A stretch of 64,000 bases of DNA from Pelagicoccus sp. SDUM812005 (lineage in GTDB: Bacteria > Verrucomicrobiota > Verrucomicrobiia > Opitutales > Opitutaceae): contig NZ_JARXIA010000015.1 of NCBI RefSeq assembly GCF_031127875.1, positions 62,001 through 126,000 of the forward strand, read 5' to 3'. Position numbers and translations under genes: made by a program. Positions 40,438 through 60,700 of the stretch are shown piece by piece (within the stretch, counting starts at the first letter, position 1; each line of letters opens with the position of its first letter). The notes under the pieces were generated by a model. It saw nothing but the letters and a program-made list of their open reading frames with translations, was not told where the DNA came from and searched no databases.

Positions 40438-40442
40438 CTCGC

Positions 40443-42895: not shown

Positions 42896-42907
42896 TCGAG
42901 CGGCTGC

Positions 42908-44393: not shown

Positions 44394-44421
44394 GCGCCCG
44401 ACCTAACAGTCGGGCGCTTTT
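44394..44421 (+). terminator. Strong intrinsic terminator
   Basis: GCGCCCGAC pairs with GTCGGGCGC (9 bp) around CTAACA, followed by TTTT. It lies 182 bases after the MFS stop. The intervening 44213-44393 is otherwise unexplained and is either a long 3' untranslated region or a small RNA ending here. Confidence 0.85.
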
Positions 44422-44497
44422 GTGTGTACAGAGTTCGTGCTCGTTGAAACGAAACGGGACGCGGAGCGAGCGTCACCCTCGCCCCGCTGGCCAGGCG

Positions 44498-45655
44498 CTA
44501 TCCGCCGAAAACATCCAGCATCGCTGCCTTGTAGGATTCCATTTCCTTCTGCGTACCGATGCTGATCCGGCACCAATCCTCGTAGGGCGGAAACGGGCGC
44601 CCTACCAAGAAGCCCCGTTCCTTCATCATCTTCTGAAAGGAGCGTATCTCGATGCCTGTCTTGTGAAACACGAAGTTCCCAACCGAAGGCGTGTAGTGAA
44701 GCCCCAAGGTGTCGAGCAACTCGCAATACTGCTCCCGACCTTCGGCGATCAGGCGCTTCGACTGAGCATGGAACCGATCGTCGTCCACACTCGCGATCGC
44801 GGCGATCACTCCCAGATAGCTCGGGCTCGACATCTTATGGCGGCCCATCTTTTCGAGAATCTTAGGATCCCCGATCGCGTAGCCAATCCGGTGCCCAGCC
44901 AGTCCATGCATCTTTGAGAAAGACCGGCCAATGACCACCGGATATCCCTGCTTCACCAAGTCGACCTGGGTCTGGGCCTCGAAGTCGGGCAAAAGCTCCA
45001 AATAGACTTCATCCAAGAAAACAACGCCCGTATTGCTGGCCTTGATACAGTATTCCCGGATCTCCGCTGGAGTACGAATCGTGCCCGTCGGCGTATCAGG
45101 ATTGCAAACGTAGCTCAAGGCCGCCTCCTGCTTCTCGACCGCATCCAGCATCGCGTCCAAGTCGTGCTGCATGCTTTTCGTATGGGAAACCCACTCCACA
45201 TGAGCCCCGCGCTTCTCCGCATGCTCCCCCAGCTGCAAATAGGTTGGCTTGGCAGATACCACTGTCTTGCCAGGAGCCGCGTAAGCCGCCGCCGCGAGGG
45301 CTAAGATCTCGTCGCAACCGTTGCCAAGCAAGATATGGTCTGGCGTCACCCCTTCCCGCGCCGCGATGCGATCCTTGAGGATCTCCTCTTCCCGAAAGGG
45401 GTAGCGGCAGCTATTCCCCACTTCCCTCATGATCGCCATGCTCACCTTCTGCGACGGACCGAACGGATTCTCGTTCCCCGCCAGATTAATGTATTTTAGT
45501 TCCGGATACCGAGCCGCCTGGCTTTGGGCGTCAGGAATAGCCTGGCCTAAGGCCCGGCCTCCCAACGCAAGCCCCAGGGACATGATCCCCGCGTTCCGAA
45601 TCCAATTGCGACGGCTGATCGCCCCGCTTCCTCGATTTTCAGATAATGCTTCCAC
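44498..45655 (-). CDS. Tat-exported PLP-dependent aminotransferase, HisC-like (paralogue 2)
   Basis: A 385-residue enzyme with a canonical Tat signal (SRRNWIRNAG at residues about 14-23, then a GIMSLGLALGGRALGQA hydrophobic stretch), so it is exported folded with cofactor. Mature motifs: GNENPFGPS, LGNGCDEILALA, CNPDTPTG (Asn-Pro of the PLP-binding turn), FLDEVYLEL, and the PLP lysine in RSFSKMHGLAGHRIGYA. Closest to histidinol-phosphate aminotransferases. More diverged than the pair at 30750 and 45808, which resemble each other. AAGGTGG gives the ribosome-binding site. About 150 bases downstream of aminotransferase 3, same strand, so probably one transcript. Substrate unknown. Confidence 0.87.
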   Translation of the reverse strand: MEALSENRGSGAISRRNWIRNAGIMSLGLALGGRALGQAIPDAQSQAARYPELKYINLAGNENPFGPSQKVSMAIMREVGNSCRYPFREEEILKDRIAAREGVTPDHILLGNGCDEILALAAAAYAAPGKTVVSAKPTYLQLGEHAEKRGAHVEWVSHTKSMQHDLDAMLDAVEKQEAALSYVCNPDTPTGTIRTPAEIREYCIKASNTGVVFLDEVYLELLPDFEAQTQVDLVKQGYPVVIGRSFSKMHGLAGHRIGYAIGDPKILEKMGRHKMSSPSYLGVIAAIASVDDDRFHAQSKRLIAEGREQYCELLDTLGLHYTPSVGNFVFHKTGIEIRSFQKMMKERGFLVGRPFPPYEDWCRISIGTQKEMESYKAAMLDVFGG

Positions 45656-45807
45656 CTTTTAAATACCTCCTAATAAAAAGGCCGGCCTTTGCCGTTGGCG
45701 GGAGACGCTTTCACGAATTCCACCAACGCCACAGACCGGCTCAACTGAACGAATCGCTGAAATTCAGATGGCTGGCTGAACTTCAAACGATGCAACTGAC
45801 TATAACC

Positions 45808-46959
45808 TTAGAGTTTTCCTTGGCCCTTCATCACTTCTTCAAAGACAGTGAGGAAGGTGCTCATTTCGTCTTCGGTGCCGATACTTACGCGGCACCAGTC
45901 GAGCATTGGCGGGAACGGACGACCGACCATGATCTGGCGGCTCTCCATCAACGCCTGAAATTCCTTGATTGGCACTCCTGTCTTCATGAAGACGAAGCTG
46001 CCCTGCGGGTAAGCGTACTCGATGCCGAGCTCGTCCAAACGATCGGTAACCATCTTGCGGACGCTGCGATAGCTGCCAACGCTCTGCTCGAAGAAAGCGG
46101 CATCCTGCAAGGAAGCCACAGCCGCGACGCAACCGAGCTTGTTCGGTCCGCCCATGCTGTACTTGCGGAGCTTCGCCTTCGTATCAGGTTTCATGATACC
46201 ATAACCGACGCGCAAGCCTGCCATGCCATAAACCTTGGAGAAAGTACGAGCCAAAATGATGTTCTCCCCTTCGCGAACGAGAGGAATCATGCTGTGCTTG
46301 GCGAGACCGCCGTCAGCCAATTCGAGGTAAGCTTCGTCCACGAACGCTACGATATTCTCCGGCAATTCGCGGATGAACGCCTTGAGGGCTTCAGGATCCG
46401 TAACCGTACCGGTCGGATTGTTCGGATTGCAGAGGTAAACCATCACCGTGTTCTCGTCGATGGCAGCTTTGACAGCATCTAGATCGTACTCGAGCTTGTC
46501 GTTCAGCGGCACCAGCTTCGTCTCGCCGCCGAAAGCGTCGAAAGTACGCACCAGCTGCGTGTAGCCCGGCTCAACCGAAACCACGTTCTTGCCGGGAGCA
46601 GCGTAGGCCATCGCAGCCATCTGCAAGACTGGGCCCGAACCCGCGGTAGGCACGACATAGTCAGCCGGTACCATTTCCTTCATGGCGATCGCTTCGATCA
46701 GGGCCTGGGTCTCCTCCCCGGCATACCGGTTGATGTCCGGCAGTTCCTGCATGATGGCCATCATCGCCATCTGCGAGTAGCCAAACGCGTTTTCGTTTCC
46801 GCTGATCTTGATCGGGCCCTGGCTTCCTTCGCTCGAGTCAACCTCGTGCTGGCCAAAGGCTACCTGCGGCGTGAGCGCAAAGGTCGCTGCCGCGAGCAGC
46901 GAGGTTATTAGAGACGCGGAGCCTTGCCCCGACTTCTTCGGTACCGTTGTAGTAGACAT
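45808..46959 (-). CDS. Exported PLP-dependent aminotransferase, HisC-like (paralogue 3)
   Basis: A 383-residue enzyme close to the one at 30750-31880: ISGNENAFGYSQ, VPTAGSGPVLQMAA, EPGYTQLVR, CNPNNPTGT, FVDEAYLEL and the lysine in RTFSKVYGMAGLRVGYG. The N-terminus is a signal peptide (MSTTTVPKKSGQGSASLITS then LLAAATFALTPQVAFGQ) lacking twin arginines, having a Lys-Lys pair instead. How it acquires PLP outside the cytoplasm is therefore open: Sec export followed by folding, or Tat with a degenerate motif. The start carries the AAAAAGATGTCT module. It is divergent from the flavin amine oxidase operon across a 251-base gap. Confidence 0.86.
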   Translation of the reverse strand: MSTTTVPKKSGQGSASLITSLLAAATFALTPQVAFGQHEVDSSEGSQGPIKISGNENAFGYSQMAMMAIMQELPDINRYAGEETQALIEAIAMKEMVPADYVVPTAGSGPVLQMAAMAYAAPGKNVVSVEPGYTQLVRTFDAFGGETKLVPLNDKLEYDLDAVKAAIDENTVMVYLCNPNNPTGTVTDPEALKAFIRELPENIVAFVDEAYLELADGGLAKHSMIPLVREGENIILARTFSKVYGMAGLRVGYGIMKPDTKAKLRKYSMGGPNKLGCVAAVASLQDAAFFEQSVGSYRSVRKMVTDRLDELGIEYAYPQGSFVFMKTGVPIKEFQALMESRQIMVGRPFPPMLDWCRVSIGTEDEMSTFLTVFEEVMKGQGKL

Positions 46960-46965
46960 CTTTTT
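46954..46965 (-). promoter_or_regulatory. Start-site module AAAAAGATGTCT (aminotransferase 3)
   Basis: Reads AAAAAGATGTCTAC on the minus strand, identical over 14 bases to the copies at 31875 and 47205. Confidence 0.55.
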
Positions 46966-46995
46966 AATTGTTTTAGGTTAAATCGAAACACCGTC

Positions 46996-47005
46996 GGTTT
47001 AGCAT
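46996..47005 (-). promoter_or_regulatory. Shared upstream element ATGCTAAACC
   Basis: Second copy of the decamer also found before the TonB-dependent receptor, at nearly the same distance from the start codon (36 against 38 bases). Confidence 0.4.
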
Positions 47006-47066
47006 GCCCCGCGCCCAACCAGCACCAAACGCGGAAAAACAGTGAATTCATTTCGCCCCTGCCCTG

Positions 47067-47079
47067 CCTTATCTATAGT
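47067..47079 (-). promoter_or_regulatory. Candidate promoter element ACTATAGATAAGG
   Basis: On the minus strand, about 108 bases before the aminotransferase start. Similar to the element at 40249-40264. It could supply a -10 hexamer. The 251-base gap 46960-47210 must also hold the promoter of the plus-strand amine oxidase operon, not located. Confidence 0.35.
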
Positions 47080-47204
47080 GTACGCCTGTCTGGGAAGAAG
47101 CTGCGAATACTGCTTAGACAATCGCCTGTATCGACATTTCTCGGACAAATAGGCACGCGCTTTGCTCATGCCCAACAAAAGGCGCTCAGCGCACTATTTT
47201 ATAC

Positions 47205-47216
47205 AAAAAGATGTCT
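47205..47216 (+). promoter_or_regulatory. Start-site module AAAAAGATGTCT (flavin amine oxidase)
   Basis: TACAAAAAGATGTCT; the flank TAC is shared with the receptor 1 copy. It initiates the seven-gene operon. Confidence 0.55.
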
Positions 47217-48788
47217 ACCAAAGCGAAACTCACTCGCCGGAACTTTATCCGGCAAGTCGGGGCGTACGGCGGTTGTGCCTTCACAACTATGACCGCGCTC
47301 GGACTCATGACCCAAGCTACTGGCCACGGAGCAGAGCTCACTGGCCTCACGCACATCGGCGGCAAGTCGAAGAAGCGCGTACTGATCCTAGGAGCAGGCA
47401 TAGCGGGCCTCACCGCCGCCTACGAGCTGGGCAAGCTGGGCTTCGACTGCGTCATCCTCGAGCCTCGTCCCATCCCGGGCGGCCGCAGCATGACCCTCCG
47501 TCGCGGGGATACCATCAAAGAGACCACCGGAGCCTCCCAAACCTGCGAGTTCGACGAAGGCCTCTACTTCAACCCCGGCCCGTCCCGCTTCCCCCAATGG
47601 CACGTGACCATGGACTACTGCCGCGAACTGGGAGTCGAAGTCCAACCTTTCGTCAATCTCAACGAAAACGCCTTCTACTACGGCGAAGGCGATATCGGCC
47701 CCATGTCGGGCAAGCGAGCTCGTATCCGAGAAGTGAAGACAGACCTTCGCGGCTACACGGCGGAACTCTTGGCCAAGGTCGCCGACGACGAAGCGCTCGA
47801 CACGGAGCTAACCGCCGCCGACAAGGAAGCCCTCCTGGACTTCCTCCACTACGAAGGCGGACTGAGCGGATCGCAAAACGAATACAAAGGCCACAACCGC
47901 CGCGGCTACAAGGTCTGGCCCGGAGGCGGCTTGCAGGAAGGCGAGCTGGACAAGCCCTACGAATTCTCGGAGCTCCTCCAGTCCGGCTTCGGAAATCTCT
48001 TCCACCGTGCCAACGAGTACCAATACCAGTCTCAAATGTTCACGCCCACCGGCGGCATGGACAAGCTCCCCATGGCCCTCGCCGAACGAGTCAAGGACCA
48101 GATCATCTACGGAGCCCAGGTGAAGGAGATCCGCCGTACCAATCCCGGCTCTCGCGTCGTCTACACCGTAAATGGCGAAGACAAGGAGCTCACCGGCGAC
48201 TACTGCATCTGCACCATTCCACCCACGATCCTCAGGCGCTTGCAAACGGACTTTTCTCCCATGCTCAAGAACACGCTCAACATCGTGCCCTTCCAGAATT
48301 CCGGAAAGATCGGCATGCAGTTCAAGCGGCGCTTCTGGGAAGAGGACGACCGGATCTACGGCGGCATTTCATGGACCAACCTGCCCGTATCGGAAATCTG
48401 GTATCCATCGTCTGGATTCATGGGCAAGAAGGGAATCATGGGCGGATACTACCTTTTCGGACCGACCTCCGACCAGCTCGGACGCATGAGCCCAGCGGAG
48501 CGCCTCGAGTTCGCCCTTTCCCACGGCGAAAAGCTACACCCTCAATACCGTGCCGAATTCGAGAACGCCTTCTCGGTAAACTGGTCGACCATCCCGCACA
48601 TCGAAGGCTGCTTGGCCCACTTCCCGCAAGCCATGCTCAAAACCTTCTACCCGCTTCTCATCAAGCCAGAAGGCGAGCTATACCTCGCCGCGAGCTGGGC
48701 CAGCCACCTCGGCGGTTGGCAAGCCGGCGCCTTCGAAGCCGCTCGAATCGCCGTCAAAAGCATTCACGAACGTACCATGGCGTCATGA
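47211..48788 (+). CDS. Tat-exported flavin amine oxidase/dehydrogenase
   Basis: A 525-residue FAD enzyme of the monoamine oxidase/L-amino acid oxidase superfamily. A Tat signal (LTRRNFIRQVG, residues 7-17) precedes the dinucleotide fold RVLILGAGIAGLTAAYELGK (56-75) and PGGRSMTLRRGD. FNPGPSRFPQWH and GGMDKLPMALAERV follow the family layout; the C-terminal FAD-site segment reads LYLAASWASHLGGWQAGAFE where the family has a GEH-type motif. It oxidises an amine or amino acid to an imine. The stop overlaps the start of a cytochrome c gene, so electrons probably go to cytochrome c rather than oxygen, as shown for nicotine oxidoreductase NicA2 with its cytochrome partner. Substrate not readable. Confidence 0.88.
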   Translation: MSTKAKLTRRNFIRQVGAYGGCAFTTMTALGLMTQATGHGAELTGLTHIGGKSKKRVLILGAGIAGLTAAYELGKLGFDCVILEPRPIPGGRSMTLRRGDTIKETTGASQTCEFDEGLYFNPGPSRFPQWHVTMDYCRELGVEVQPFVNLNENAFYYGEGDIGPMSGKRARIREVKTDLRGYTAELLAKVADDEALDTELTAADKEALLDFLHYEGGLSGSQNEYKGHNRRGYKVWPGGGLQEGELDKPYEFSELLQSGFGNLFHRANEYQYQSQMFTPTGGMDKLPMALAERVKDQIIYGAQVKEIRRTNPGSRVVYTVNGEDKELTGDYCICTIPPTILRRLQTDFSPMLKNTLNIVPFQNSGKIGMQFKRRFWEEDDRIYGGISWTNLPVSEIWYPSSGFMGKKGIMGGYYLFGPTSDQLGRMSPAERLEFALSHGEKLHPQYRAEFENAFSVNWSTIPHIEGCLAHFPQAMLKTFYPLLIKPEGELYLAASWASHLGGWQAGAFEAARIAVKSIHERTMAS

Positions 48789-49162
48789 AACTCCTTTCCC
48801 AAGCAATCGCCGGAGCCTGCCTCGCTGCAAGCTTCGGCTTCTCCAGCGCCTGCGCCAATCCTCCTGCCGACGCTCCCGTGCAGCTAGATCCGGCCTCCGT
48901 CGAAAAAGGCAAGCAGACCTACGCCATGTTCTGCCAAGCCTGCCACGGCCCGGAGGACCCAAGCATCGATTCGCCTAGTAACCTCTTCGACAAGAAGTGG
49001 TTCCACGGTTCGGGACGGGACGGCGTGGAAAAGACCATTCGCGATGGCATCGTCGACAAAGGCATGCCGGGCTGGGGTCCCATGATCCCAAGCGAGGACA
49101 TCGACGCCCTCCTCGACTACCTCTTCAGCTTCCAAACAACAGAAACATCTACCGATGAATAA
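48785..49162 (+). CDS. Periplasmic c-type cytochrome
   Basis: A 125-residue monohaem cytochrome with signal peptide (1-24, cut near SACA-N), the haem motif CQACH at residues 50-54 and a methionine ligand likely in GMPGW (93-97), followed by the C-terminal helix SEDIDALLDYLFSF. Class I fold. The ATG overlaps the amine oxidase stop (ATGA) and its own end overlaps the ammonium transporter start by 8 bases, tying the three into one translational unit. It should accept electrons from the flavoenzyme and pass them to a terminal oxidase. A lipid-modified cysteine at residue 23 is possible but the lipobox is poor. Confidence 0.92.
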   Translation: MKLLSQAIAGACLAASFGFSSACANPPADAPVQLDPASVEKGKQTYAMFCQACHGPEDPSIDSPSNLFDKKWFHGSGRDGVEKTIRDGIVDKGMPGWGPMIPSEDIDALLDYLFSFQTTETSTDE

Positions 49163-50510
49163 CGTATCCACTTTCTCCCGACTCCTCCGACCGGGACTCT
49201 TCTTGCTGCTAACAGCTTTCGATCTATCGTTCGGCGGCGAGCTCTTTGCCCAACACCGGGTGACCGAAGGCAACTACGGTGAGTACATCGACACCATTAC
49301 CGCCGAAGAGTCGTTCTTCACCATCGGCAACATGTGGCTGATCGTCTGCGCCGTGCTCGTCTTTATGATGCACCTTGGATTCGCCACCCTCGAGTCGGGG
49401 CTCACCCGCTCGAAGAATACCATCAACATCATCTTCAAAAACCTCTTCGTTATCAGCTCCGGCCTGCTGCTCTACGCGCTCTTCGGGTTTCGCACCATGT
49501 ATCCGGGTTCTGAATTCAACGGAATAATGTCCCTCGGTTTCTGGATCGGAGTAAATCCTGCGGACTACCTCGATATCATGAGCGCCAAGTACGCGAACTA
49601 CACCTGGTGGACCGACTTCATCTTCCAGGCCATGTTCGCCGCCACTGCCGCGACCATCGTTTCGGGAGCCGTAGCGGAACGCGTAAAGCTGAGCAGCTTC
49701 ATGGTATTCACGGTGCTGATCGTCGGCTTTGCCTATCCCGTAGCCGGGTCCTGGGAATGGGGTACGGGCTGGCTCGACCGCAACGGTTTCCACGACTTCG
49801 CCGGTTCTTCCGTTGTACACGCCTTTGGCGGTTTCGCAGCCCTCGCCTGCGTGCTCATCCTCGGCCCAAGAAGAGGTAAGTACGGAACCGACGGCCCCAA
49901 GAAACCGATCATCGGCCACAGCATGCCGCTCGCCTCGGTCGGCGTATTCTTGCTCTGGTTTGGCTGGTTCGGCTTCAACGGAGGCTCGGTCCTCAGCGCC
50001 CATCCTGAGATGATTGGCCTAGTGGTGACCAACACCGCCCTCGCCGGCGCCGCCGGTTGCCTAGCGAGCATGATCACCACCCAATTCATGCTGAAGAAGC
50101 CCGATGTATCCATGGCCCTCAACGGCGTGCTCGCCGGCCTCGTAGGAATCACCGCGGGCGCCGATTCCATGATGCCCGCTCCCGCCATCCTCGTAGGAGC
50201 CATCGCTGGCGTCCTTGTCGTCTTCGCCATTCTCGGCTTCGAGAAGATCAAGGTCGACGACCCTGTAGGCGCCACTTCCGTACACGGCGTTTGCGGCGTT
50301 TGGGGAACCCTAGCGGTCGGCATCTTTGGTGAAGCCCCCTTCCTCTGGCAATTGATCGGCACCCTCTCCTACGCCTTGTTCGCTTTCGTCTTCTCCTTCG
50401 CAGTCTTCTACTTGATCAAGCTCGTCATGGGCATCCGCGTCACAGCGGAAGAGGAGGATATCGGACTCGACATATCCGAGCACGGCCAAGAGGCCTACTC
50501 GATCGACTAA
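49155..50510 (+). CDS. amt: Ammonium transporter (Amt family)
   Basis: A 451-residue channel-type ammonium transporter with an N-terminal signal-like helix (FSRLLRPGLFLLLTAFDL) and about 11 further membrane helices. Conserved features: GNMWLIVCAVLVFMMHLGFA, ERVKLSSFMVF, the twin histidines in SSVVHAFGG and TSVHGVCGVWGT, and PIIGHSMPLASVGVFLLWFG. No glnK partner gene is near, unusual for amt loci and in keeping with recovering ammonium released by deamination in the periplasm rather than with nitrogen-starvation control. It overlaps the cytochrome gene and precedes the RidA gene by 21 bases. Confidence 0.92.
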   Translation: MNNVSTFSRLLRPGLFLLLTAFDLSFGGELFAQHRVTEGNYGEYIDTITAEESFFTIGNMWLIVCAVLVFMMHLGFATLESGLTRSKNTINIIFKNLFVISSGLLLYALFGFRTMYPGSEFNGIMSLGFWIGVNPADYLDIMSAKYANYTWWTDFIFQAMFAATAATIVSGAVAERVKLSSFMVFTVLIVGFAYPVAGSWEWGTGWLDRNGFHDFAGSSVVHAFGGFAALACVLILGPRRGKYGTDGPKKPIIGHSMPLASVGVFLLWFGWFGFNGGSVLSAHPEMIGLVVTNTALAGAAGCLASMITTQFMLKKPDVSMALNGVLAGLVGITAGADSMMPAPAILVGAIAGVLVVFAILGFEKIKVDDPVGATSVHGVCGVWGTLAVGIFGEAPFLWQLIGTLSYALFAFVFSFAVFYLIKLVMGIRVTAEEEDIGLDISEHGQEAYSID

Positions 50511-50531
50511 GGAAACGCCAACGTATCCATA

Positions 50532-51962
50532 ATGTCTTTACTTCCACAGCATAAGTTTCGCTACGTGGCTGGGCTCTTCGTGCTCGCCGCGCTAGCGTAC
50601 CTCGGCCTGCGTTTCATTGGAACCAACACCAACCAGCGCATCCACGCCTACAAGCAGGCCGCCCTTCCATACGCGGATGCCGTAGTGGTGGAACCGGGCT
50701 CCGAGTACTTCTACACTTGGGGCGTCACCGCTAGCCCTCGCATGAAGGAGATCGCCAAGAACAGCGTGGAAAACCGCTACGGCGATACCTACGAGCAAAC
50801 CTTCAGCGTACTCGCCCAATTGACCAAGGACCTCGCCGAAGTCGGCCTCACCCTCAGGGACGTCGTCAACGTGCGTGCCTATATCGTAGCGGATCCGGAG
50901 CCGGACTTCGACGGATGGAACCGCGCCTTCAAGCAATTCTTCGGTACCGCCACCAACCCGCACAAGCCGGCCCGCACCACCGTCGGAATCTCTCGCCTCT
51001 TCCACTCCGACTACCGCGTCGAGGTGGAGTTCGTAGCAGTCTTTCCAGACGGACGCGGGCCGCACACCGTCGGCACGCGGCAACACGAACGCTACAGCCG
51101 CCTGAGCCGTACCGAGACGAGCGAACGCTGGAAATCCTACGGACGCCCCATCTGGCCCATGAGCACCGGCAAGGCGACCGTCGCCGATACTAGCATGTTC
51201 TTCTCCTCCTCCGTGCGGCCTGCCTCCCTCATGCCGAACCCACCTCCCGGGTTCTTCATGTACGGGAACATAAGCCAACAGTCTGCCTCCCTCTTCAAGC
51301 AGATGGGCAGCCAGCTCAAGGAAGCGGGCCTCGGATTCGAGGACGTCTTCTTCATCAGAGCTTGCGTCTATCCGGGCAAGGATTCGATCAGCAAGAACTT
51401 CGCCGCCTTCAACCAGGAATACAGCAAGTTCTTCAACAACGCTCGCAATCCCAACCAGCCCACTCGTACCGTCATGTCGACCCCCGGTTTCAACTACCGG
51501 AACCAGAGCATATCGATCGAGTACTACGCCGCGTATCCAGAGGATAGCGACAGGGAATTCGCAGCGGCTCGCGAGTCCATCGGCTCCAGCCTTGCCGTAG
51601 TCGATTCCAAGCCGATCGCTCCCGCTGGCGTATCCGTTGCCTCGGACGCAAAGATGGTCTTTCTAGCGGGCAGCATTCCCTCCGTCGAAGGGGACATGAA
51701 AGCTCAAGCCACCTCCGCGCTCCAGGCCCTCCAAGCCCGAGTCGAGTTGGCCGGAGGAACCCTTGACGATCTCGTGCACATCCGCGCCTACATCGCGGAA
51801 GGGGACACCAAAACCTTGGACAAGCGGATCGCCGAATGGGAAGCGCTCTATCGCGAAACCTTCAGCGGAGACCAAGCCCCCGCTATCACTACCTTGCCGG
51901 TCGATTCAATCGTGGGGAACGGAATGATTGAACTCGAGGGAGCCGCCGCCATACGTCCTTGA
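50532..51962 (+). CDS. Membrane-anchored protein with three tandem RidA (YjgF) domains
   Basis: A 476-residue protein with one N-terminal membrane helix (residues 8-28, RYVAGLFVLAALAYLGLRF), so it faces the periplasm. Three RidA domains follow: about 42-172, 200-336 and 358-475. The active-site arginine that follows a Pro-Ala or Pro-Thr is kept as Arg148 (PHKPARTTVG) and Arg312 (NQPTRTVMST) but replaced in the third domain by Ile452 (APAITTLP). RidA normally is a cytosolic homotrimer of single domains with active sites between subunits, hydrolysing reactive imines and enamines; three covalent copies would make a pseudo-trimer. The upstream flavoenzyme would make such imines. The gene is in the middle of the operon, and its stop lies 50 bases before the chosen ALDH start. 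Confidence 0.88.
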   Translation: MSLLPQHKFRYVAGLFVLAALAYLGLRFIGTNTNQRIHAYKQAALPYADAVVVEPGSEYFYTWGVTASPRMKEIAKNSVENRYGDTYEQTFSVLAQLTKDLAEVGLTLRDVVNVRAYIVADPEPDFDGWNRAFKQFFGTATNPHKPARTTVGISRLFHSDYRVEVEFVAVFPDGRGPHTVGTRQHERYSRLSRTETSERWKSYGRPIWPMSTGKATVADTSMFFSSSVRPASLMPNPPPGFFMYGNISQQSASLFKQMGSQLKEAGLGFEDVFFIRACVYPGKDSISKNFAAFNQEYSKFFNNARNPNQPTRTVMSTPGFNYRNQSISIEYYAAYPEDSDREFAAARESIGSSLAVVDSKPIAPAGVSVASDAKMVFLAGSIPSVEGDMKAQATSALQALQARVELAGGTLDDLVHIRAYIAEGDTKTLDKRIAEWEALYRETFSGDQAPAITTLPVDSIVGNGMIELEGAAAIRP

Positions 51963-52011
51963 TGTGCCAATACTCGAAGCCACCTTTCCTGAAGAGGATC
52001 TAGAATCGGAG

Positions 52012-53424
52012 ATGCCAAAATCGCTACTCAGCATGGCCACTATCGGTGGGCGTACCCAAGACACCGAGGAGCGATTCGAAGTCATCAACCCCGCCACCGG
52101 ATGCCCTTTCGCCACGGCGCCGCTCTGCGGAGCTCCAGAGCTCGCGGCCGCCGTCACCTTCTCCAAGCGAGCCCAACCTCAATGGACTCAATCGGAGCGC
52201 AACCGCCGGGGCGCCCTCCTCGCTTGCTCCCACGCCATCGCGCGGAAGCAGGAGGAGCTGGCCAAGCTCATTACCCTCGAGCAGGGCAAGCCCATCGCCG
52301 AGGCGCGCAGCGAGGTCGCCTACGCAGCGGAAGTCTTCGAGGCCTACTCAAAGATGGAAGTCCCGAGCAAAGACCTCACCAACGGCGAGAAAAACCGAAC
52401 CCTCCTGCTCAACCGCCCCTACGGAATCGTCGGCCTCATCACCCCCTGGAACTTTCCCATCGGCACCGCAGCCGTAAAGATCGCCCCCGCCCTCCTTGCC
52501 GGCAATGCCGTCATCCTAAAACCGTCCCCCGTCGCCCCCCTCTCCCCGCTCCTGCTCGGAAGAATCCTCAAGGACCTCTTGCCCGCTGGGATTCTGAATA
52601 CGCTATCCGGCGACAAGAGCTTGGGCGAACAAATCACGCGTCACCCGGAGATCAGGAAACTTTCCGTAACCGGTTCCATTCCCACCGGCCAAGCGATCCT
52701 CGCGGAAGCCGCCACGGAACTTAAGTCCGTTACCCTGGAGCTGGGCGGGAACGATCCTGCCATCCTCCTTCCCGACTGCGACCCGCAAAAGATCGCCAAG
52801 GACATTCTCGAATCAGCCTGGCGAAACGCCGGCCAAGTCTGCAGCGCCATCAAGCGAGTCTACGTTCACGAATCCATCTACCAAGCCACCGTATCCGCCC
52901 TTTGCTTACGCATGGCCGACTACCCTGTCGGCTCCGGAAACGAGCCAGGGGCCCGCATCGGCCCCCTCACTACGGAGTACTCGAAGGAACGCCTGACCGA
53001 CCTCGTCAAAAACGCCCAAACGGAGGGGGCCAAAATAACTCGCAGTTCGAGCCCGCTCCCCGAACCTGGCTATTTCTTCGCTCCCGCCATCGTTTCGGAG
53101 ATCCGGCCCGACCACCCGCTCGTGCTCGAAGAGCAATTCGGGCCGGTGCTGCCCGTCGTCCCCTATCGCAATATCGACCAAGCCATCGAATGGTCGAATG
53201 CTACCAACTACGGCCTTTCCGCATCCGTTTGGACTACGTGCCCAAGCGTTGGATACGATATCGCATCAAAACTCGAGTGTGGGCGGGTGGGCGTGAACGG
53301 ACACCGACGGGCCAAAGCCTCCGCCCCTTTCGGCGGATTCAAGCACTCAGGACTCGGCCGGGAGCTCGGCCAATGGGGACTGGCCGAAATGTGCGAGTCT
53401 CAGGTCGTCAATATCTTCGAATAA
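52012..53424 (+). CDS. NAD(P)-dependent aldehyde dehydrogenase
   Basis: A 470-residue aldehyde dehydrogenase of the succinate-semialdehyde/aminoaldehyde type, without signal peptide, so cytoplasmic. FNPATG-like INPATGCPF start, LLNRPYGIVGLITPWNFPIG, ILKPSPVAPLSPLLLG, LELGGNDPAILL with the general-base glutamate, and the catalytic Cys277 in NAGQVCSAIK; C-terminus FGGFKHSGLGRELGQWG. The ATG at 52012 is preferred; a GTG at 51964 directly after the RidA stop would add 16 residues. It would oxidise an aldehyde formed from amine oxidation once transported inward. Exact substrate unknown. Confidence 0.9.
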   Translation: MPKSLLSMATIGGRTQDTEERFEVINPATGCPFATAPLCGAPELAAAVTFSKRAQPQWTQSERNRRGALLACSHAIARKQEELAKLITLEQGKPIAEARSEVAYAAEVFEAYSKMEVPSKDLTNGEKNRTLLLNRPYGIVGLITPWNFPIGTAAVKIAPALLAGNAVILKPSPVAPLSPLLLGRILKDLLPAGILNTLSGDKSLGEQITRHPEIRKLSVTGSIPTGQAILAEAATELKSVTLELGGNDPAILLPDCDPQKIAKDILESAWRNAGQVCSAIKRVYVHESIYQATVSALCLRMADYPVGSGNEPGARIGPLTTEYSKERLTDLVKNAQTEGAKITRSSSPLPEPGYFFAPAIVSEIRPDHPLVLEEQFGPVLPVVPYRNIDQAIEWSNATNYGLSASVWTTCPSVGYDIASKLECGRVGVNGHRRAKASAPFGGFKHSGLGRELGQWGLAEMCESQVVNIFE

Positions 53425-53458
53425 TTCCACCACCACTCGCAAACCGCCAACACCACAG

Positions 53459-53470
53459 AAAAAGATGTCT
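53459..53470 (+). promoter_or_regulatory. Start-site module AAAAAGATGTCT (gamma-glutamyltransferase)
   Basis: Sixth copy; here within an operon, 40 bases after the ALDH stop, which argues for a translational rather than a promoter function. Confidence 0.55.
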
Positions 53471-55186
53471 ACTCGTTCATGTGTCGCCGCCCTTGGCGCC
53501 ATCAGCTTCGCTGCGTCCCTGCTCGCAGCTCCCGAACCGCCGATCTACAACAGCGCCTCCACGTCCCATCCTGAATCCGCCCTGCACGGCATGGTTTCCA
53601 GCCGAGAAAAGCTCGCCAGCGAAGCCGCATTGGAAGTTCTCAAAAACGGAGGAAACGCGATCGACGCCGCCGTAACCCTCGGCTTCGCCATGGCAGTCAC
53701 CACGCCTCAAGCAGGCAATATCGGAGGCGGCGGGTTCATGATGATCCACTCTGCGGATACGAACACAACCGTAGCGATCGACTACCGGGAAAAAGCGCCA
53801 CTCGCCGCCACCCGAGATATGTTTCTCGACGCGAACGGGGACGTGGACAAGGAACGCTCGCGCTACAGCCACCTCTCCGCTGGGGTGCCGGGAACGGTAG
53901 CCGGCTTCGCCCTCGCCCTCGAAAAGTACGGAACCATCACCCTAGCCGAAGCCTTGGCTCCAGCCATCGATCTCGCCCAAAACGGTTTCCCCGTAAACGA
54001 AGACCTCTACCAATCGCTCAAGACCGCGAAGCCGCGTGTAGAAAAGCACGCGCCGCACGCCCTGAAGGACTTCTACGACGAAGACGGCATCCCCTATCCT
54101 CCCGGGCACATCATCACCCTGCCGAACCTTGCCAAAAGCCTGGGCCTCATTGCCGAACAGGGAGCCGACGCATTCTACAAAGGGCCGATCGCCGACCTCA
54201 TCGTCGAAGACATGAAGGAAAACGGAGGCATCATCACCAAACAAGATCTCGAACAATACCAGGCTGTAGTGAGAACTCCAGTACGCGGCACCTACAAAGG
54301 ATACGAGATCGTTTCCATGCCGCCGCCGAGCTCCGGGGGCGTGCACATCGTGCAGATCCTAAACATCCTGGAAGCCTTCGACCTAAAGGCCAGCGGACAC
54401 AACAGCGCCCAAACCATCCACCTCATGGCGGAAGCGATGAAGTTCGCCTATGCCGACCGCTCCAAGCACCTCGGCGACAGCGACTTCAACCCAATCCCCG
54501 TCGACTGGCTCACCTCCAAGGAATACGCCGCCGACATTCGCTCTCGCATGAACACTGAAAAGGCGACCCCGAGCACGGAAATCCTTCCCGGCGAACCGAT
54601 CCACGAAGGCCTCGACACCACGAACTACACCGTGATGGACAAGTACGGGAACGCCGTGGCCAACACTTATACCATCAACTTCACCTTCGGCTCGAAGATC
54701 ATGCCGCCCGGTACCGGATTCTTCCTCAACAACGAGATGGACGACTTCTCCTCCAAGCCCGGCGTCCCCAACGCCTACGGTCTCATCGGCGGCGAGTACA
54801 ACTCCATCGAATCCGAAAAGCGCATGCTGAGCTCCATGTCCCCCACCCTCGTGCTCAAAGACGGAAAGCCCTTCCTTCTCACCGGCAGCCGCGGCGGCAG
54901 CCAAATCATAACCGTAAGCCTTCAGGTCATCCTCAACGTCCTAGAGCACGGGATGAATCTATCCGAAGCAGTATCCGCATCACGCATACACCACCAGTGG
55001 CTTCCGGACGTACTGCGCCTGGAGCGCGGCATCAGCGCCGACACCCAGGCCAAGCTGAAAGAGATGGGCTACGAACTGAACGAAGGCGGAGCCATGGGTA
55101 CCGCCAACTCCGTATCCCTCCAGGACGAAGTCTTCTATGGCGCAGCGGATCCTCGCCGCCCGGACACCTTTGCAATCGGCTTCTAA
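53465..55186 (+). CDS. ggt: Gamma-glutamyltransferase, periplasmic
   Basis: A 573-residue Ntn-hydrolase that releases or transfers the gamma-glutamyl group of glutathione and related compounds. Signal peptide 1-22 (cut at LLAAP). Family signatures: GMVSSREKLASEAALEVL, GNAIDAAVTLGFA, GNIGGGGFMM, and the autocleavage site at DTTNYTVMD, where Thr385 becomes the N-terminal nucleophile of the small subunit. GSRGGSQIITVSLQV and the C-terminal GTANSVSLQDEVFYGAADPR complete it. Length fits. Directly upstream of a membrane-dipeptidase gene; the pair recalls renal breakdown of glutathione to its amino acids. Confidence 0.94.
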   Translation: MSTRSCVAALGAISFAASLLAAPEPPIYNSASTSHPESALHGMVSSREKLASEAALEVLKNGGNAIDAAVTLGFAMAVTTPQAGNIGGGGFMMIHSADTNTTVAIDYREKAPLAATRDMFLDANGDVDKERSRYSHLSAGVPGTVAGFALALEKYGTITLAEALAPAIDLAQNGFPVNEDLYQSLKTAKPRVEKHAPHALKDFYDEDGIPYPPGHIITLPNLAKSLGLIAEQGADAFYKGPIADLIVEDMKENGGIITKQDLEQYQAVVRTPVRGTYKGYEIVSMPPPSSGGVHIVQILNILEAFDLKASGHNSAQTIHLMAEAMKFAYADRSKHLGDSDFNPIPVDWLTSKEYAADIRSRMNTEKATPSTEILPGEPIHEGLDTTNYTVMDKYGNAVANTYTINFTFGSKIMPPGTGFFLNNEMDDFSSKPGVPNAYGLIGGEYNSIESEKRMLSSMSPTLVLKDGKPFLLTGSRGGSQIITVSLQVILNVLEHGMNLSEAVSASRIHHQWLPDVLRLERGISADTQAKLKEMGYELNEGGAMGTANSVSLQDEVFYGAADPRRPDTFAIGF

Positions 55187-55206
55187 GCTAAAAGAAACTC
55201 ATAGAT

Positions 55207-56490
55207 ATGAATAGCACGATTCGCGCTCTCGCACTCGCGTCCGTCCTCGCATTTTCCCTCCAGGCAAAGGACCAGGAACGCACGCCGCGTACTGACTGGA
55301 CGGATACGCAACTGGAAGAACTCGCCTGGAAGATCCATCAGAATTGCCTGACGCTCGATACGCACATGGACGTGCCAATCGTCCTCAAACGCCCCGGTTT
55401 CGACATTTCCGAGGAGCACAGCTGGCACGAGCATGCGAGCCAGGTCGACTTCCCCAGAATGAAAAAAGGCGGCATGGACGGCGGCTTCTTCGTGGTCTAC
55501 GTCGGCCAGGGCCCGCTCACCCACGAAGGCCGCCAAAAGGCCATCGCTTCCGGATTCGAAATAGCCGACTTGATTCACAAAACAGTCGAGGAACATTCGG
55601 ATCTCGCCGCTATCGCCACCACTCCGGCGGAAGCCTACGCCATTCGGGAGGAAGGCAAACGAGTCGTCTTCATCGGCATCGAAAACGGATACACCATCGG
55701 GCGAAACATCGACCTGCTAAAAGACTATTACGACAAGGGCGTGCGCTACTTCGGCGTCACCCACAGCAAGAACAACGACCTCGCCGATTCCTCGACCGAC
55801 CCTGAAGGCAACCTCCACATGGGGCTCTCCGATCTCGGTCGGGCCGCCATCGAGGAATGCAACCGCCTCGGCATCATGGTCGACATCTCCCACTCCTCCG
55901 ACAAAACGGTCTGGGACATCCTCGAGCTCTCCAAGACACCCCTACTCGCCTCCCACAGCGGCTGCTACGCCTGCTACCCGCACCCGCGCAACCTCAACGA
56001 CGCCCTCCTCAAAGAAATCGCCGCCCGCGACGGCGTGGTGCAGATGAACATGTTCAGCGCCTACATGATGGACGTCGAACCGAACGAGGAACGCTCCCAA
56101 GCAATGAAAGCCTGGTTCGAAAAATACCGAAGCGGCCGGGAGCTCAGCGAAGCCGAGCAGGTCGAGGCCACCGAGCAATACGTCGCCTTGCAGAAGAAGT
56201 TCCCGAAACCGCTCTCTACGGTATCCGCCGTGGTCGACCATATCGACCACATGGTGAAGGTGATGGGGATCGATCACCTCGGCTTGAGCGGCGACTTCGA
56301 CGGAGGCGGTGGAGTCGAAAACTCCATGGACATCGGCCAGATGATGCCCATCACCATCGAAATGCTCAGACGCGGCTACAGCGAGGAGGACCTCGAAAAG
56401 TTCTGGGGAGCCAACGTCATGCGCGTCTTGCAAGCCTCCCTGGACTACGCGGCCAGCCTAGCGGAATCTGCCGAGCCGCAGGACAGCTGA
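55207..56490 (+). CDS. Membrane (renal-type) dipeptidase, exported
   Basis: A 427-residue peptidase M19 enzyme with signal peptide (1-20, ending SLQAK). Zinc ligands in order: His-x-Asp in TLDTHMDVPI, the bridging Glu in GIENGYTI, and histidines in MVDISHSSDK and LASHSGCYAC. GLSGDFDGGGGVE and GANVMRVLQ are late family motifs. Substrates of the family are L- and D-terminal dipeptides, cysteinylglycine, and in bacteria other small amides. It follows ggt by 20 bases and ends the operon. PvdM, required for pyoverdine maturation, is a paralogue in the same family, so a modifying role is an alternative. Confidence 0.92.
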   Translation: MNSTIRALALASVLAFSLQAKDQERTPRTDWTDTQLEELAWKIHQNCLTLDTHMDVPIVLKRPGFDISEEHSWHEHASQVDFPRMKKGGMDGGFFVVYVGQGPLTHEGRQKAIASGFEIADLIHKTVEEHSDLAAIATTPAEAYAIREEGKRVVFIGIENGYTIGRNIDLLKDYYDKGVRYFGVTHSKNNDLADSSTDPEGNLHMGLSDLGRAAIEECNRLGIMVDISHSSDKTVWDILELSKTPLLASHSGCYACYPHPRNLNDALLKEIAARDGVVQMNMFSAYMMDVEPNEERSQAMKAWFEKYRSGRELSEAEQVEATEQYVALQKKFPKPLSTVSAVVDHIDHMVKVMGIDHLGLSGDFDGGGGVENSMDIGQMMPITIEMLRRGYSEEDLEKFWGANVMRVLQASLDYAASLAESAEPQDS

Positions 56491-56594
56491 AACGCCGCGT
56501 CACCAGATCGTTACAACTTTCAGATTTCAATCGCCAAGGACCTGCTCTAGCTCAAGCGTATCCGTGCCCACTCTCTTAGGACACCGTACGTATC

Positions 56595-57731
56595 GTGAAA
56601 CTAGCGCTCGTCACCGAAACCTACCCTCCGGAAATCAACGGAGTTGCCATGACTCTCAGCCAGCTCGTCGGAGGGCTGAGAGACAAGGGTCACCTCGTTC
56701 AAGTGGTTCGCCCCATCCAATGCTCCGAGCAAGGCGAACCCAGCGTAAGCTCCGATACCATTACCGTATTCGGACTTCCAATACCACGTTACCCTGACCT
56801 GCGATTCGGACTCCCTTCCCGCAACCGCCTCATCCACGCTTGGCAAACTAATCGCCCCGACATCGTTCACGTCGCCACCGAAGGCCCTCTCGGGCTCTCG
56901 GCCATTCGCGCCGCCAAAGTCCTAGGAATACCCACCACTTCCACCTTTCACACCAACTTCCACAGCTACAGCGAGCACTACAACGCGAAGTTCGCCACCC
57001 GCATCGTCCTGGCCTTCCTCCGCTGGATACACAACCAAACGCGCTGCACCATGGCTCCCACGCAAGAGCTCGCCCAAGAGCTCGCAGCGGAGGGATTCAA
57101 GAACATGGACGTTTTTGGACGCGGCGTTAACCTAAAAGTGTTCACCCCAAAAGCTCGCGACGAGAACCTGCGAAAGTCCTGGAACGCCGCGACCGATTCG
57201 CCCGTATTTATCCACGTCAGCCGACTCGCCGCCGAAAAGAACTACGAGCTCCTAAACAAGGCGTATTCAAAGATCAGAGACACTCGGCCTGACGCTCGCT
57301 TCGTTATCATCGGCAGCGGCCCGATGGAAAAGCAACTGCGGCGAAAAATGCCCTATGCCTATTTTCCAGGCGCCATCCCACTCGAAAATCGTCCCGAGCT
57401 CGCCCGCTACTACGCTTCCGCCGACACCTTTCTCTACCCGAGCAAAACAGAGACATACGGAAATGTCGCAACCGAGGCCATGGCTTGCGGCAACGCCTTG
57501 CTCGGCTTCGACTACGCTGCCCCCGCCCAGCACGTGCGCCACGGTGCAAACGGCCTGCTCGCAGCCCTCGACGACGACGACAGCTTCCTTCGCAGCTCCG
57601 TCGAAATCGCTCGCAACGACGCGCTGCGCAAAAGGTTGGGCCAAGCTGCGGCAGCCTACTCGCCCGCCTTCGACTGGCAACCGATCGTCGATCGCTTCGA
57701 AAGCATTCTGCGCAGAACGATCACCAGCTAG
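56595..57731 (+). CDS. GT4 glycosyltransferase (mannosyl/sulfoquinovosyl-type)
   Basis: A 378-residue GT-B enzyme with a GTG start (VKLALVTETYPPEINGVAMT), chosen because this is the exact N-terminus of the family and no ATG lies upstream. Acceptor domain motifs PSRNRLIHAWQTNRPDIVHV and TSTFHTNFHSYSEHY; the donor domain has FVIIGSGPMEKQLRR and the E-x7-E signature SKTETYGNVATEAMACG. Resembles diacylglycerol or phosphatidylinositol glycosyltransferases that build glycolipids. It ends against the histidine kinase gene, with a 4-base overlap of the converging stops. Confidence 0.85.
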   Translation: MKLALVTETYPPEINGVAMTLSQLVGGLRDKGHLVQVVRPIQCSEQGEPSVSSDTITVFGLPIPRYPDLRFGLPSRNRLIHAWQTNRPDIVHVATEGPLGLSAIRAAKVLGIPTTSTFHTNFHSYSEHYNAKFATRIVLAFLRWIHNQTRCTMAPTQELAQELAAEGFKNMDVFGRGVNLKVFTPKARDENLRKSWNAATDSPVFIHVSRLAAEKNYELLNKAYSKIRDTRPDARFVIIGSGPMEKQLRRKMPYAYFPGAIPLENRPELARYYASADTFLYPSKTETYGNVATEAMACGNALLGFDYAAPAQHVRHGANGLLAALDDDDSFLRSSVEIARNDALRKRLGQAAAAYSPAFDWQPIVDRFESILRRTITS

Positions 57732-60700
57732 AGCAACGGTTCTACCGTCGATGAATCGCCGCTGCTCTCTTGGAGCAGGCGATAGGTCTTAGCGATCGTA
57801 TCCTTTAGGTCGTCCGGCTTGAAAGGCTTGGTCAGGTATCCATCCATTCCCGCTCCGAAGCAATTCTCGCGGTCCTCGCGCATCGCGTTCGCGGTAAGTG
57901 CGATGATCCGCGGACGCTTCTCGCCCCAGCGCTTGATGATCTCGCGAGTCGCTTCCAGTCCGTCCATTTCCGGCATCTGGATATCCATGAACACCAGATC
58001 GAAATCTCCCTCGCCAATCATATGGACCGCTTCCAATCCATTCTGGGCGACTGCGATTTCATAGCCCATCTTCTTGAAGAGTCGATTCGCGACCTTCTGG
58101 TTGATCGCATTGTCCTCGGCTAGCAAGATGCGGAGAGGCATTTGTTCGCCAAACTTCGTGCCTTCGTTCAAAACCTTTTTCACCCGCGGCGCCGCTCTGC
58201 CTCCCGCTTCCAGCATACGAGACTTTACGTTCTCCAGCTTGTATGGCTTCAGCAACGACAAGGTGTTGCCATCCGCATTCTCTCCGAGGTGCATGCTACC
58301 GAGACGCCCGGTGAAAACGATCGTAAGGTTCTCGTTGCCCAGCACGCTCCGTATCCGCGTCTTCAGCTCCTGATACTCCAAGCCGCCCAGTCCCGCTTCG
58401 ATGAATACGACGTCCACGTCCGGAAATGCCTGAACGATGGTCTCGAGTTCGTCGATCCTCGTTCCAGACCGGACCGTCACGCCGAACAATTCGAGCTGGC
58501 TCGTCAATGACTCGCAACTGAATCCATGATGATCGAGCACGATCGCCTTGCGCCCTTCCAAAAGGCTAGGAGCGCGAGAGCTGCCAATGTCGAAGCTGAG
58601 TGCAGCCCGATTAAACGACACCGTAAAGTGGAAGGTCGATCCCACACCTTCGTCGCTCTCGACCCACATCGAACCACCCATCAGCTCCGCAAGGTTCTTG
58701 CTGATGGCAAGGCCCAGACCCGTGCCGCCATACTTGCGCGTGGTCGACGCGTCGACCTGGCTGAAGGATCCAAAGAGTCTGTCAATGCGATCGGCAGGGA
58801 TTCCGATTCCCGTATCGCTTACCTGGAAATGCAAGATGACATCGTCGTCCTTCACATGGAACGGGTCCACTCGAACCACGACGCCGCCCTTCGCAGTAAA
58901 TTTCACCGCATTTCCGATCAAGTTGACGATCACCTGGCGTAGACGTGTCGGGTCGCCCAACAGGGATCCCGGTATTCCCTTTCCAAATACATAGGAAATA
59001 TCCAAGCCCTTCTCAGTCGCCTGGATCGCAAGCGTATCGATCGCTTCCTCGATCGTATCGCGAAGGTCGAACATGATGTTCTCCAACTCCAGCTTTCCTG
59101 ATTCGATCTTCGAAAAGTCGAGGATATCGTTGATCACAACCAGCAGCGCCTCGCTACTAGCCCGGATCGTATCCACATAGTCCTGCTGCTCGTTCTCGAG
59201 CGACGTCTCCGCCAAAAGCCCCGTCATGCCAATGATACCATTCATCGGCGTGCGGATCTCATGCGACATATTCGCGAGGAAGAAACTCTTCGCCCGGTTC
59301 GCCTCTTCCGCCTCCCGCATCGTCGCCCGCAAGCGCTCCTCGGAACGTTTCTGCTCCGTCACTTCGTGGAAGAACCAAACCCGGCCGTACGATTCGCCCA
59401 AAGGCGAGGAGATAGGAATCGAGGTTCGCTCAAAGGTACGTCCATCCGCAAACTCCAAGACGTCCTTAAACGTCTCGCTTTCGTTCTTCGAGATCATCAT
59501 GGCGCGCTCGAAGAAGGATTCCGAGTCCTCGACCTGCTTGGACGCGACGCTCCAGATCTTCTCCGGACGCCCCACATCCATCAAGTTCGTAGACAAGCCC
59601 CAGATTTTGCAGAAGCGTCGGTTAAAATTGGATACGATGCCGCGTTCGTTGACGACGAGGATACCGTCGGTCGCCGCCTCGCTCTGCGCCTTCAATACCG
59701 AGTTGTAGCGCTTGAGCAGGTTCTGGCGACGCTTGTTGTGCGTCACGTCCGTTCCCGTTACGACCAAAGCGGATACCCGCCCCTTCTCGTCCTTCACGGA
59801 AACCGAACGGAAATAGATATCGAGCTGGCGTCCAGACTCGGTCATGACCTGCACGTCCCCTTGCCAATGTCCGTACTCGAGCGTCTCCTGCAGGATCTTG
59901 TCGTAGACATGCTTCTCGCCGAAAAGAGCCTTTACTCCGCCCTTGTCATTAAGCACGTCAATCGTCTGGTAGCCGACGATATTGACGAAGGAATTGTTGC
60001 GATACAATGCTTCGCCCTCTCGATCGACCATGAGGACGAAGTCACTCGACGCTTCGACCGCTGCCGACACCATGCGAAGCCGCTCTTCCGACTCCTTGCG
60101 CATGGTGATGTCTTCAAAAATCCCATACCAAACAACGTTCTTGCCCGAACGCTTCTCAGGAACCGCCTTCGTGGCGACCCACTTCTGCCGACCGCTGGGA
60201 GTATTGATTCGATACTCGATATGAAGCGGCGTAAGGTGCTGGCTCGAAACTGCGAGCGACTCGTAGACCCGCTCCAAATCTTCGATACATACCGCGCCCA
60301 TCGCAACCGACGCATCCTCCATCACGGACGCTGCTTGCACCCCTAGCAGCTCTTGAACCTTTTCGCTGATGTACGGGAAGCTTGGAGTGCCCGTCTCATC
60401 CATCGAAAGGTGGAAGTAAACGCCGGGAACCTGATTGGAAAGGCGATCCAGCTCGTGGGTGCTCTTCTCAAGCTTGCTCTGCACCCGCACCTCTTCCGTA
60501 ACGTCACGCATGCAAATCACGAAGTCGCCATCCTGTGACGAGAAAATGGATACGGAAAGTTCCGTGCTCACGCCATCCGAAGATTCAACCGACTGCTGAA
60601 AAACGGAAGGAGCGCCCTCCAGCGCCTCCTCGAAGTGAAGATCGAGATCGAGGTCTCCGAAAAACGGAAATACGCTCTGCAATTGCCGACCGGCGGTTTC

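Follow-up and report, generated by a model that had tools for sequence, protein, structure and literature searches.

An Opitutae locus with a putative pathway for extracytoplasmic release of amino acid nitrogen

Among the described systems that come close to the locus reported here is the lao, cccA and ridA cluster of Gluconacetobacter diazotrophicus, whose lao mutants lose the products of tryptophan deamination and for which a periplasmic L-amino acid oxidase (LAAO) with cytochrome c as electron carrier has been proposed (PMC5053998; here and below, papers are cited for the passages that concern these components). The cluster was studied for auxin production, and its authors report the arrangement also in Caulobacter and Xanthomonas. 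In Chlamydomonas, LAO1 and LAO2/RIDA deaminate amino acids in the periplasm and release ammonium under nitrogen limitation (PMC10805672), and the imines made by LAAO are hydrolysed by RidA and Rid2 proteins (PMC4433059). The exported pyridoxal phosphate (PLP) transaminase PtaA acts in the periplasm, with other periplasmic roles suggested in a review (PMC6206403), and the TonB2 system of Vibrio vulnificus, which serves siderophore uptake, consists of TonB, ExbB, ExbD and three extra proteins, one of them with tetratricopeptide (TPR) motifs (PMC6957404). Here we describe a locus of about 20 genes that resembles each of these systems in part. It lies at 30.7-56.5 kb of a 64,000-nucleotide stretch of the marine verrucomicrobial bacterium Pelagicoccus sp. 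SDUM812005 (positions 62,001 to 126,000 of contig NZ_JARXIA010000015.1, forward strand; hereafter the window). With a probability of roughly 0.6, the locus encodes an extracytoplasmic nitrogen-stripping pathway, in which amino acids from imported, possibly gamma-glutamyl, peptides would be deaminated in the periplasm under nitrogen-limitation control.

The right half of the locus is a row of seven open reading frames (ORFs) at 47211-56490, all on the plus strand, which overlap by 4 and 8 bp or are separated by gaps of 20-49 bp, the next gene being 104 bp farther on. All seven products matched Pfam families above cut-off. The first gene (47211-48788) encodes an LAAO-type L-amino acid oxidase or dehydrogenase with the twin-arginine translocation (Tat) motif TRRNFI. 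It is overlapped by 4 bp by the gene for an exported c-type cytochrome (48785-49162; Cytochrome_CBB3), which in turn overlaps by 8 bp that for an Amt ammonium transporter with an N-terminal signal (49155-50510; PF00909, 374 bits). Then follow a membrane-tethered triple Rid protein of the imine hydrolase family (50532-51962; PF01042; gap of 21 bp), an aldehyde dehydrogenase (ALDH; 52012-53424, from the ATG at 52012; PF00171, 455 bits; 49 bp), an exported gamma-glutamyltransferase (GGT; 53465-55186; TIGR00066, 600 bits, above the cut-off of 358; 40 bp) and an exported M19 membrane dipeptidase (55207-56490; PF01244, 316 bits; 20 bp). N-termini resembling signal peptides were read from the sequences of the cytochrome, GGT and M19; for the ALDH, which shows none, a cytoplasmic location is expected. 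These coordinates bear out the seven genes that the initial annotation had placed on one strand with overlaps or gaps of at most about 50 bases; its description of them as an envelope operon holds for the exported members and fails for the ALDH. The Amt is one of five in the genome and has no GlnK gene beside it.

The flavin enzyme had been taken for an amine oxidase, an identity that we reject. In a phmmer search of the PDB the best match was the LAAO of R. opacus (2jae; E = 1.1e-101; residues 52-522 of 525), followed by LAAOs of the vertebrate type with E-values of about 1e-31 and higher, while monoamine oxidases appeared only at 1e-14 or worse. Residues R126 and Y414 align with Arg 83 and Tyr 370 (chain positions) of 2jae and are invariant across an alignment of seven LAAO sequences. 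We take their equivalents to be binders of the substrate carboxylate; a literature search for that role gave nothing. These matches make it much more probable that the enzyme is an L-amino acid oxidase or dehydrogenase than that it oxidises amines. The adjacent cytochrome is its probable electron acceptor, as the position of the gene suggests.

The triple Rid protein was modelled with AlphaFold2 as a helix at residues 6-30 followed by Rid-like domains (mean pLDDT 84.7). Its key arginine is Arg148 in domain 1, conserved in nine of ten sequences (Ile in L055), and Arg312 in domain 2, conserved in ten of ten, whereas domain 3 has it in none of the ten aligned. A pseudo-trimer geometry was not shown, the top Foldseek matches being chorismatases with TM scores of just 0.2-0.3. 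Elsewhere in the genome there is a second multi-Rid ORF (G000:C107:171774-173090), 26-36% identical to the Rid protein of the locus.

The left half of the locus lies on both strands. Upstream of LAAO are two HisC/PtaA-like exported aminotransferases on the minus strand, AT2 (45808-46959; PF00155; Sec-like signal) and AT1 (44498-45655; PF00155; SRRNWIR near the N-terminus, and Tat-exported by this motif). They are preceded by a major facilitator superfamily (MFS) permease (42908-44212, plus strand; PF07690), found at the same place in Pelagicoccus and in a genome of another genus (K14), and by the TonB-dependent receptor TBDR2 (40457-42895, plus strand; PF14905; TIGR01782 at 198 bits, under the cut-off of 310). 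On the minus strand are a second receptor, TBDR1 (37371-40001; PF00593, PF07715), and the components of a TonB2-like system: a DUF3450 protein (36467-37249; PF11932), a long ExbB-like protein (35055-36437; PF01618), ExbB (34448-35053; PF01618), ExbD (34037-34441; PF02472), a probable TonB (33336-34010), named from its position and with no Pfam match, and an exported TPR protein (31953-33314; TPR families). The third exported HisC-like aminotransferase, AT3 (30750-31889, minus strand), adjoins GGT and M19 in K14. The lysine, aspartate, tyrosine, two asparagines and one arginine of the PLP site are invariant in 55 of 55 aminotransferases, and a further arginine is kept in 54, with one gap. The seven ORFs of the initial annotation exist, and the unit continues well beyond them on the left, with genes on both strands; the region annotated at first took in neither the TonB system nor any of the three aminotransferases, and it missed most of the shared promoters.

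The locus shares with the lao, cccA, ridA cluster an LAAO-family flavoenzyme, an adjacent c-type cytochrome (in 12 of 12 genomes carrying this LAAO) and a Rid protein in the same row (11 of 12), and differs in that the Rid is triple and stands after Amt. Compared by description rather than by LAAO sequence, the passages on that cluster make no mention of Amt, aminotransferases, a TonB system, GGT or M19 (PMC5053998). The combination of an extracytoplasmic LAAO with a Rid protein recalls Chlamydomonas, whose system is eukaryotic, makes H2O2 and has no cytochrome or aminotransferase in the published scheme (PMC10805672). With PtaA the locus shares exported PLP aminotransferases of a similar family, which miss the NCBIfam equivalog cut-off and have different partners. 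Three tandem Rid domains are also known from 3x-RidA (PMC4433059), unlike which the protein of the locus has an N-terminal membrane helix, is encoded beside LAAO and, with its three Rid domains, scores 71 of the 106 bits of the TIGR00004 (RidA subfamily) cut-off. The TonB system resembles TonB2 of V. vulnificus in its components, which were compared singly and by Pfam only.

In the pathway that we propose, a sigma-54-type promoter would switch the locus on, presumably under nitrogen limitation. Powered by a TonB2-like motor of their own, the TonB receptors would import peptide-like, perhaps gamma-glutamylated, material into the periplasm, where GGT and the M19 dipeptidase, going by their families, would release amino acids. 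The Tat-exported LAAO-family dehydrogenase would convert these to imino acids and pass the electrons to the adjacent cytochrome c. Families and published activities suggest that the tethered triple Rid would turn the imino acids into keto acids and ammonium and that Amt would take up the ammonium. The exported aminotransferases would move amino groups from poor LAAO substrates onto a keto acid, the amino acid so formed being re-oxidised by LAAO. In the weakest step, the MFS permease and the ALDH would handle the carbon products inside the cell, the permease possibly acting on keto acids. The general idea of the initial annotation, nitrogen release in the envelope with imine clearance by a tethered triple Rid and ammonium recovery through Amt, is supported.

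The gene order was compared among 12 distinct genomes with this LAAO, namely the window, G019 and L050-L059; in a comparison of 100 bases, L052, L053 and L054 were identical to G089, G063 and G008. Among named organisms Pelagicoccus is the closest, and L051 is P. mobilis KCTC 13126, a cultured strain with the locus. In a tree of LAAO sequences inferred with a quick method, the window and L050-L059 formed one side of a fully supported branch, and the LAAO-Rid pair of G025 (L048), of the same family, fell outside it. The order LAAO-cytochrome c-Amt was found in all 12 genomes, with a CxxCH motif at the place of the cytochrome in each, and the triple Rid came next in 11, the contig of L058 ending inside Amt; the gene order is therefore conserved beyond chance. 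A search for this order in relatives, proposed as a check in the initial annotation, thus found it conserved. The ALDH adjoins the triple Rid in 10 of the 11 genomes that reach that far, lying on the other strand in L054, and is missing from L059. An aminotransferase gene is present within 1.6 kb of LAAO in all 12 genomes, and in 11 of them LAAO is preceded by a pair of exported aminotransferases, HisC-like and divergent from it; L055 has a single one on the plus strand with an MFS gene in between.

The genes of the left part that were compared (TBDR2-MFS, TBDR1, DUF3450, the two ExbB-like proteins, TPR and AT3) are kept in all four relatives examined, the DNA of L151 ending before AT1. The locus is conserved in Pelagicoccus and largely also in K14, where the MFS match is weak (28% identity). 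The last two genes of the LAAO operon are GGT and M19 in the window and five genomes of the same genus. As K14 at first seemed to have neither, we considered that the two genes were unlinked to the locus, and rejected this when both were found beside AT3 at the opposite end, 65 and 67% identical. The part given to GGT and the dipeptidase in the initial annotation is supported by this second position at the locus. Between ALDH and GGT, L052 (DG1235) has a gene of 2.9 kb (16251-19142) for a protein of 963 amino acids with DUF6797 and cupredoxin domains. Among 100 genomes of the family, including that of the window, a full-length triple Rid at >50% identity was present in five and a full-length LAAO at >40% identity in seven, so the locus is uncommon in the family.

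We also scanned genome contigs for LAAO loci; of 477, the best 80 were examined, which come from several phyla and cover 1.52 Mb. A Rid gene was counted if encoded on the LAAO strand at most 3.6 kb downstream, and an aminotransferase gene if at most 1.6 kb away on either side. Rid was present at 40 loci and an aminotransferase at 45: 30 had Rid alone, 35 an aminotransferase alone, 10 both and 5 neither, the ten with both being nine Opitutae and L124. All 23 Bacillota loci had a Rid, and 35 of the 38 Bacteroidota loci an aminotransferase. An aminotransferase without a Rid, by these criteria, was found at 34 of the 38 Bacteroidota loci, and an Amt match was not observed there; genes for the whole cycle were thus seen only in Opitutae. 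At two Bacteroidota loci (L119, L127) an exported-looking Rid ORF, confirmed by Pfam in one, is divergent from LAAO and was missed by the criteria. In the 1.52 Mb, the 54 relatives of the aminotransferases all lay no more than 2.8 kb from LAAO; Rid occurred 40 times within this distance and twice elsewhere. A scan for ORFs with CxxCH near LAAO gave none at the 70 loci outside Opitutae, but as the same scan recovered just 4 of 10 certain Opitutae cytochromes, this absence is hardly informative.

Tat motifs were found in 66 of the 67 LAAOs with a readable start (13 of the 80 were unread) and in 28 of 29 Bacteroidota aminotransferases (6 unread). For Opitutae aminotransferases the count was 9 of 19, a shortfall mostly due to AT2 and also to AT1 starts miscalled upstream in L056 and L057. 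The Rid proteins at these loci are mostly Sec-like, as judged by eye. In Bacillota, a TatC gene was found near the LAAO-Rid pair at 19 of 23 loci, and one TatC and one TatA were confirmed by Pfam; the TatA and TatC genes beside the pair (e.g. L095:12199-12489, L097:12646-13419) perhaps encode a dedicated Tat translocase. Another protein family was seen near LAAO at 33 of 38 Bacteroidota loci (e.g. L076:11685-12686), the one member tested having a Hint module. Of 71 matching plasmid records, four regions were inspected, one of them unannotated; plasmids of Sulfitobacter and Comamonas carry an annotated LAAO-cytochrome c-RidA row, and for Deinococcus the annotation gives cytochrome c-LAAO.

All 12 genomes have, 59-80 bp before LAAO, a GG-N10-GC site similar to the sigma-54 consensus (47151-47166, plus strand, in the window; -24/-12 type, AGGCACGCGCTTTGCT). 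Its score was at least 9 of 11 in ten genomes and 8 in L051 and L053, as compared to control ORF starts of L050-L059 with at least 9 in 3 of 113 and at least 8 in 21 of 113, and to random 120-bp stretches with 9 in 1.3% and 8 in 4.9%; the 12 genomes are related and represent about five independent lineages. A perfect site of this type is found in the gap between MFS and AT1 (44191-44206, plus strand; GAAGATGTCTAGTAAACAG). Sites scoring 8 lie towards AT2-AT1 (47002-47016, minus strand) and before TBDR2 (40392-40406, plus strand) and TBDR1 (40046-40060, minus strand); across the relatives, scores of 7-10 before AT2 in ten genomes and of 8-10 before TBDR1/2 in eight are no more than suggestive. 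The genome contains rpoN. The strict pattern TGGCAYGNNNNTTGCW has four copies in the genome, and the reversed control one; the four are before an amtB gene followed by a P-II gene (amtB-glnK), at 44191 of the locus and at two other places, and the LAAO site is one base off this pattern. A scan of 42800-57900 with the sigma-70 consensus gave no site, with 3.8 expected by shuffling.

More specifically, and more tentatively, somewhat short of even odds, the locus may perform transdeamination: the aminotransferases would funnel amino groups onto one keto acid, the cytochrome-linked LAAO would re-oxidise the corresponding amino acid, and nitrogen would cross the inner membrane only as ammonium. An aminotransferase-LAAO pair is common in Bacteroidota, and the Opitutae version would be wired to Amt and TonB uptake under sigma-54, with a short sigma-54 transcript and a start motif.

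It is possible, if unlikely, that LAAO, cytochrome c, Rid and Amt form a plain periplasmic route and that the aminotransferases have a tailoring task of their own, on a molecule that is imported or exported, like that of PtaA in the maturation of pyoverdine. This would fit the LAAO-Rid pairs of Bacillota, the plasmid genes of Sulfitobacter and Comamonas, with no aminotransferase annotated next to LAAO-cytochrome c-Rid, and the rank of PtaA in NCBIfam (third for AT1, second for AT2). However, AT1, AT2 and AT3 all miss the PtaA cut-off (NF051461; 204, 214 and 176 of 500 bits), in 11 of the 12 Opitutae genomes the aminotransferases and LAAO have a divergent region in common, and most Bacteroidota loci have an aminotransferase beside LAAO without, by the criteria used, a Rid. 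Salvage of glutathione or gamma-glutamyl peptides as the main purpose, with LAAO handling the released amino acids, was the first reading of the initial annotation and is now improbable. GGT and M19 do occur at the locus in seven genomes and in two different positions, and in the window, L050 and L019 the start motif common to genes of the locus is present at GGT as well. Against this, no match to either was found within up to 10 kb on each side in L055-L057, which keep LAAO-cytochrome c-Amt-Rid, although the genes could be farther off, as in K14; given this absence, they look like an added feeder. The second reading, catabolism of gamma-glutamylated amines analogous to the Puu route, was rejected, as the flavin enzyme matches LAAO and the ALDH reaches only 223 of the 850 bits of the PuuC cut-off; no PuuA, PuuB or PuuD was present among the locus genes scanned, a result confined to these genes and not drawn from a genome-wide search. 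A siderophore- or metallophore-like locus for uptake and periplasmic processing is highly improbable, since Amt, LAAO and Rid would have no evident place in it and the promoters look like sigma-54, even though the TonB receptors, the TonB2-like motor and the exported PLP enzymes are reminiscent of the maturation and uptake of pyoverdine and the M19 protein presumably resembles PvdM.

Several observations weigh against the nitrogen-stripping pathway. The role of the ALDH is unexplained: the expected products are keto acids rather than aldehydes, and its subfamily differs outside Pelagicoccus, the best models being the aminobutyraldehyde type in the window (354 of 615 bits) and the succinic semialdehyde type in L054-L056 (353-405 of 730 bits), all below cut-off. 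Relatives of this LAAO use oxygen as the acceptor. A twin arginine is missing from the AT2 of the window and of 8 of 10 relatives; L058 and L059 have a Tat motif. Only the LAAO and 44191 promoter sites stand out, the others scoring in a range that control ORFs also reach, and at 34 of 38 Bacteroidota loci the pair has no Rid gene by the criteria used, with no Amt match seen.

The initial annotation knew of no described system with this composition. The LAAO-cytochrome c-RidA arrangement (PMC5053998) and a periplasmic LAAO with RidA (PMC10805672) are published, and the core and 3x-RidA are hence already known; a match to the full composition was not found in the open-access literature. It gave no paper in which the LAAO-cytochrome c-Rid core is combined with exported aminotransferases, Amt, TonB uptake and GGT/M19, and none that fitted on LAAO with an exported aminotransferase or on transdeamination. 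Antimicrobial amino acid oxidases of the H2O2 type are the subject of a review (PMC4699246). What is new are the LAAO-aminotransferase and LAAO-Rid pairings across the 80 loci and their union, together with Amt, in Opitutae. If the proposal is correct, some bacteria detach nitrogen from carbon while both are still outside the cytoplasm and take it up as ammonium, with a dedicated uptake machine; for marine nitrogen cycling this would be a bacterial equivalent of the amino acid oxidases that phytoplankton have on the cell surface (PMC10980195). It would also give exported aminotransferases a partner and a purpose outside pyoverdine maturation, and the recurrent pair in Bacteroidota becomes directly testable.

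The site in the MFS-AT1 gap is perfect in the window and L050 and scores 8-10 in L019, L051-L054, L056 and L057; in all nine genomes it is followed by the conserved short element GAAGATGTCYAGWAAACA. A strong hairpin with a T-run comes after this element in the three genomes tested (window, L050 and L057). In the window it is located at 44393-44422 (plus strand), has a short T-run and is a possible terminator of a short transcript; it was missed by a consensus scan that gave 14 terminator-like sites in 42800-57900, with 16 expected. By its sequence features, 44191-44422 looks like a short sigma-54 transcript, a candidate small RNA or leader. Rfam at gathering scores gave no known RNA family in 40000-57800, the only conserved fold in 44209-44470 was a hairpin of five pairs with no real support, and conservation of the short ORF of the element (12-29 codons) stops after the first codons.

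Finally, a 12-mer, AAAAAGATGTCY, is present in 11 copies in the 6.65 Mb genome (reversed control, 0), of which six are at gene starts of the locus. The start-codon motif (AAAAAGATGTCT) is located on the minus strand at AT3 (31875-31886, its ATG being the fourth codon of the listed ORF), TBDR1 (39996-40007) and AT2 (46954-46965), and on the plus strand at LAAO (47205-47216), GGT (53459-53470) and a 3-codon ORF that overlaps the TBDR2 start (40443-40454). The remaining copies are at the starts of a gene for a TonB_C protein (L146:1507-2046) and of an ORF of 229 codons, and at three places without an ORF of 20 codons. L055, L058 and L059 are without the motif, and at GGT it was seen only in the three genomes named above. 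As far as L054, L056 and L057, the relatives have it at LAAO, AT2 and TBDR1, and in L056 and L057 it is 13 bp before the assigned LAAO start. A common start-codon motif may coordinate the translation of these genes.

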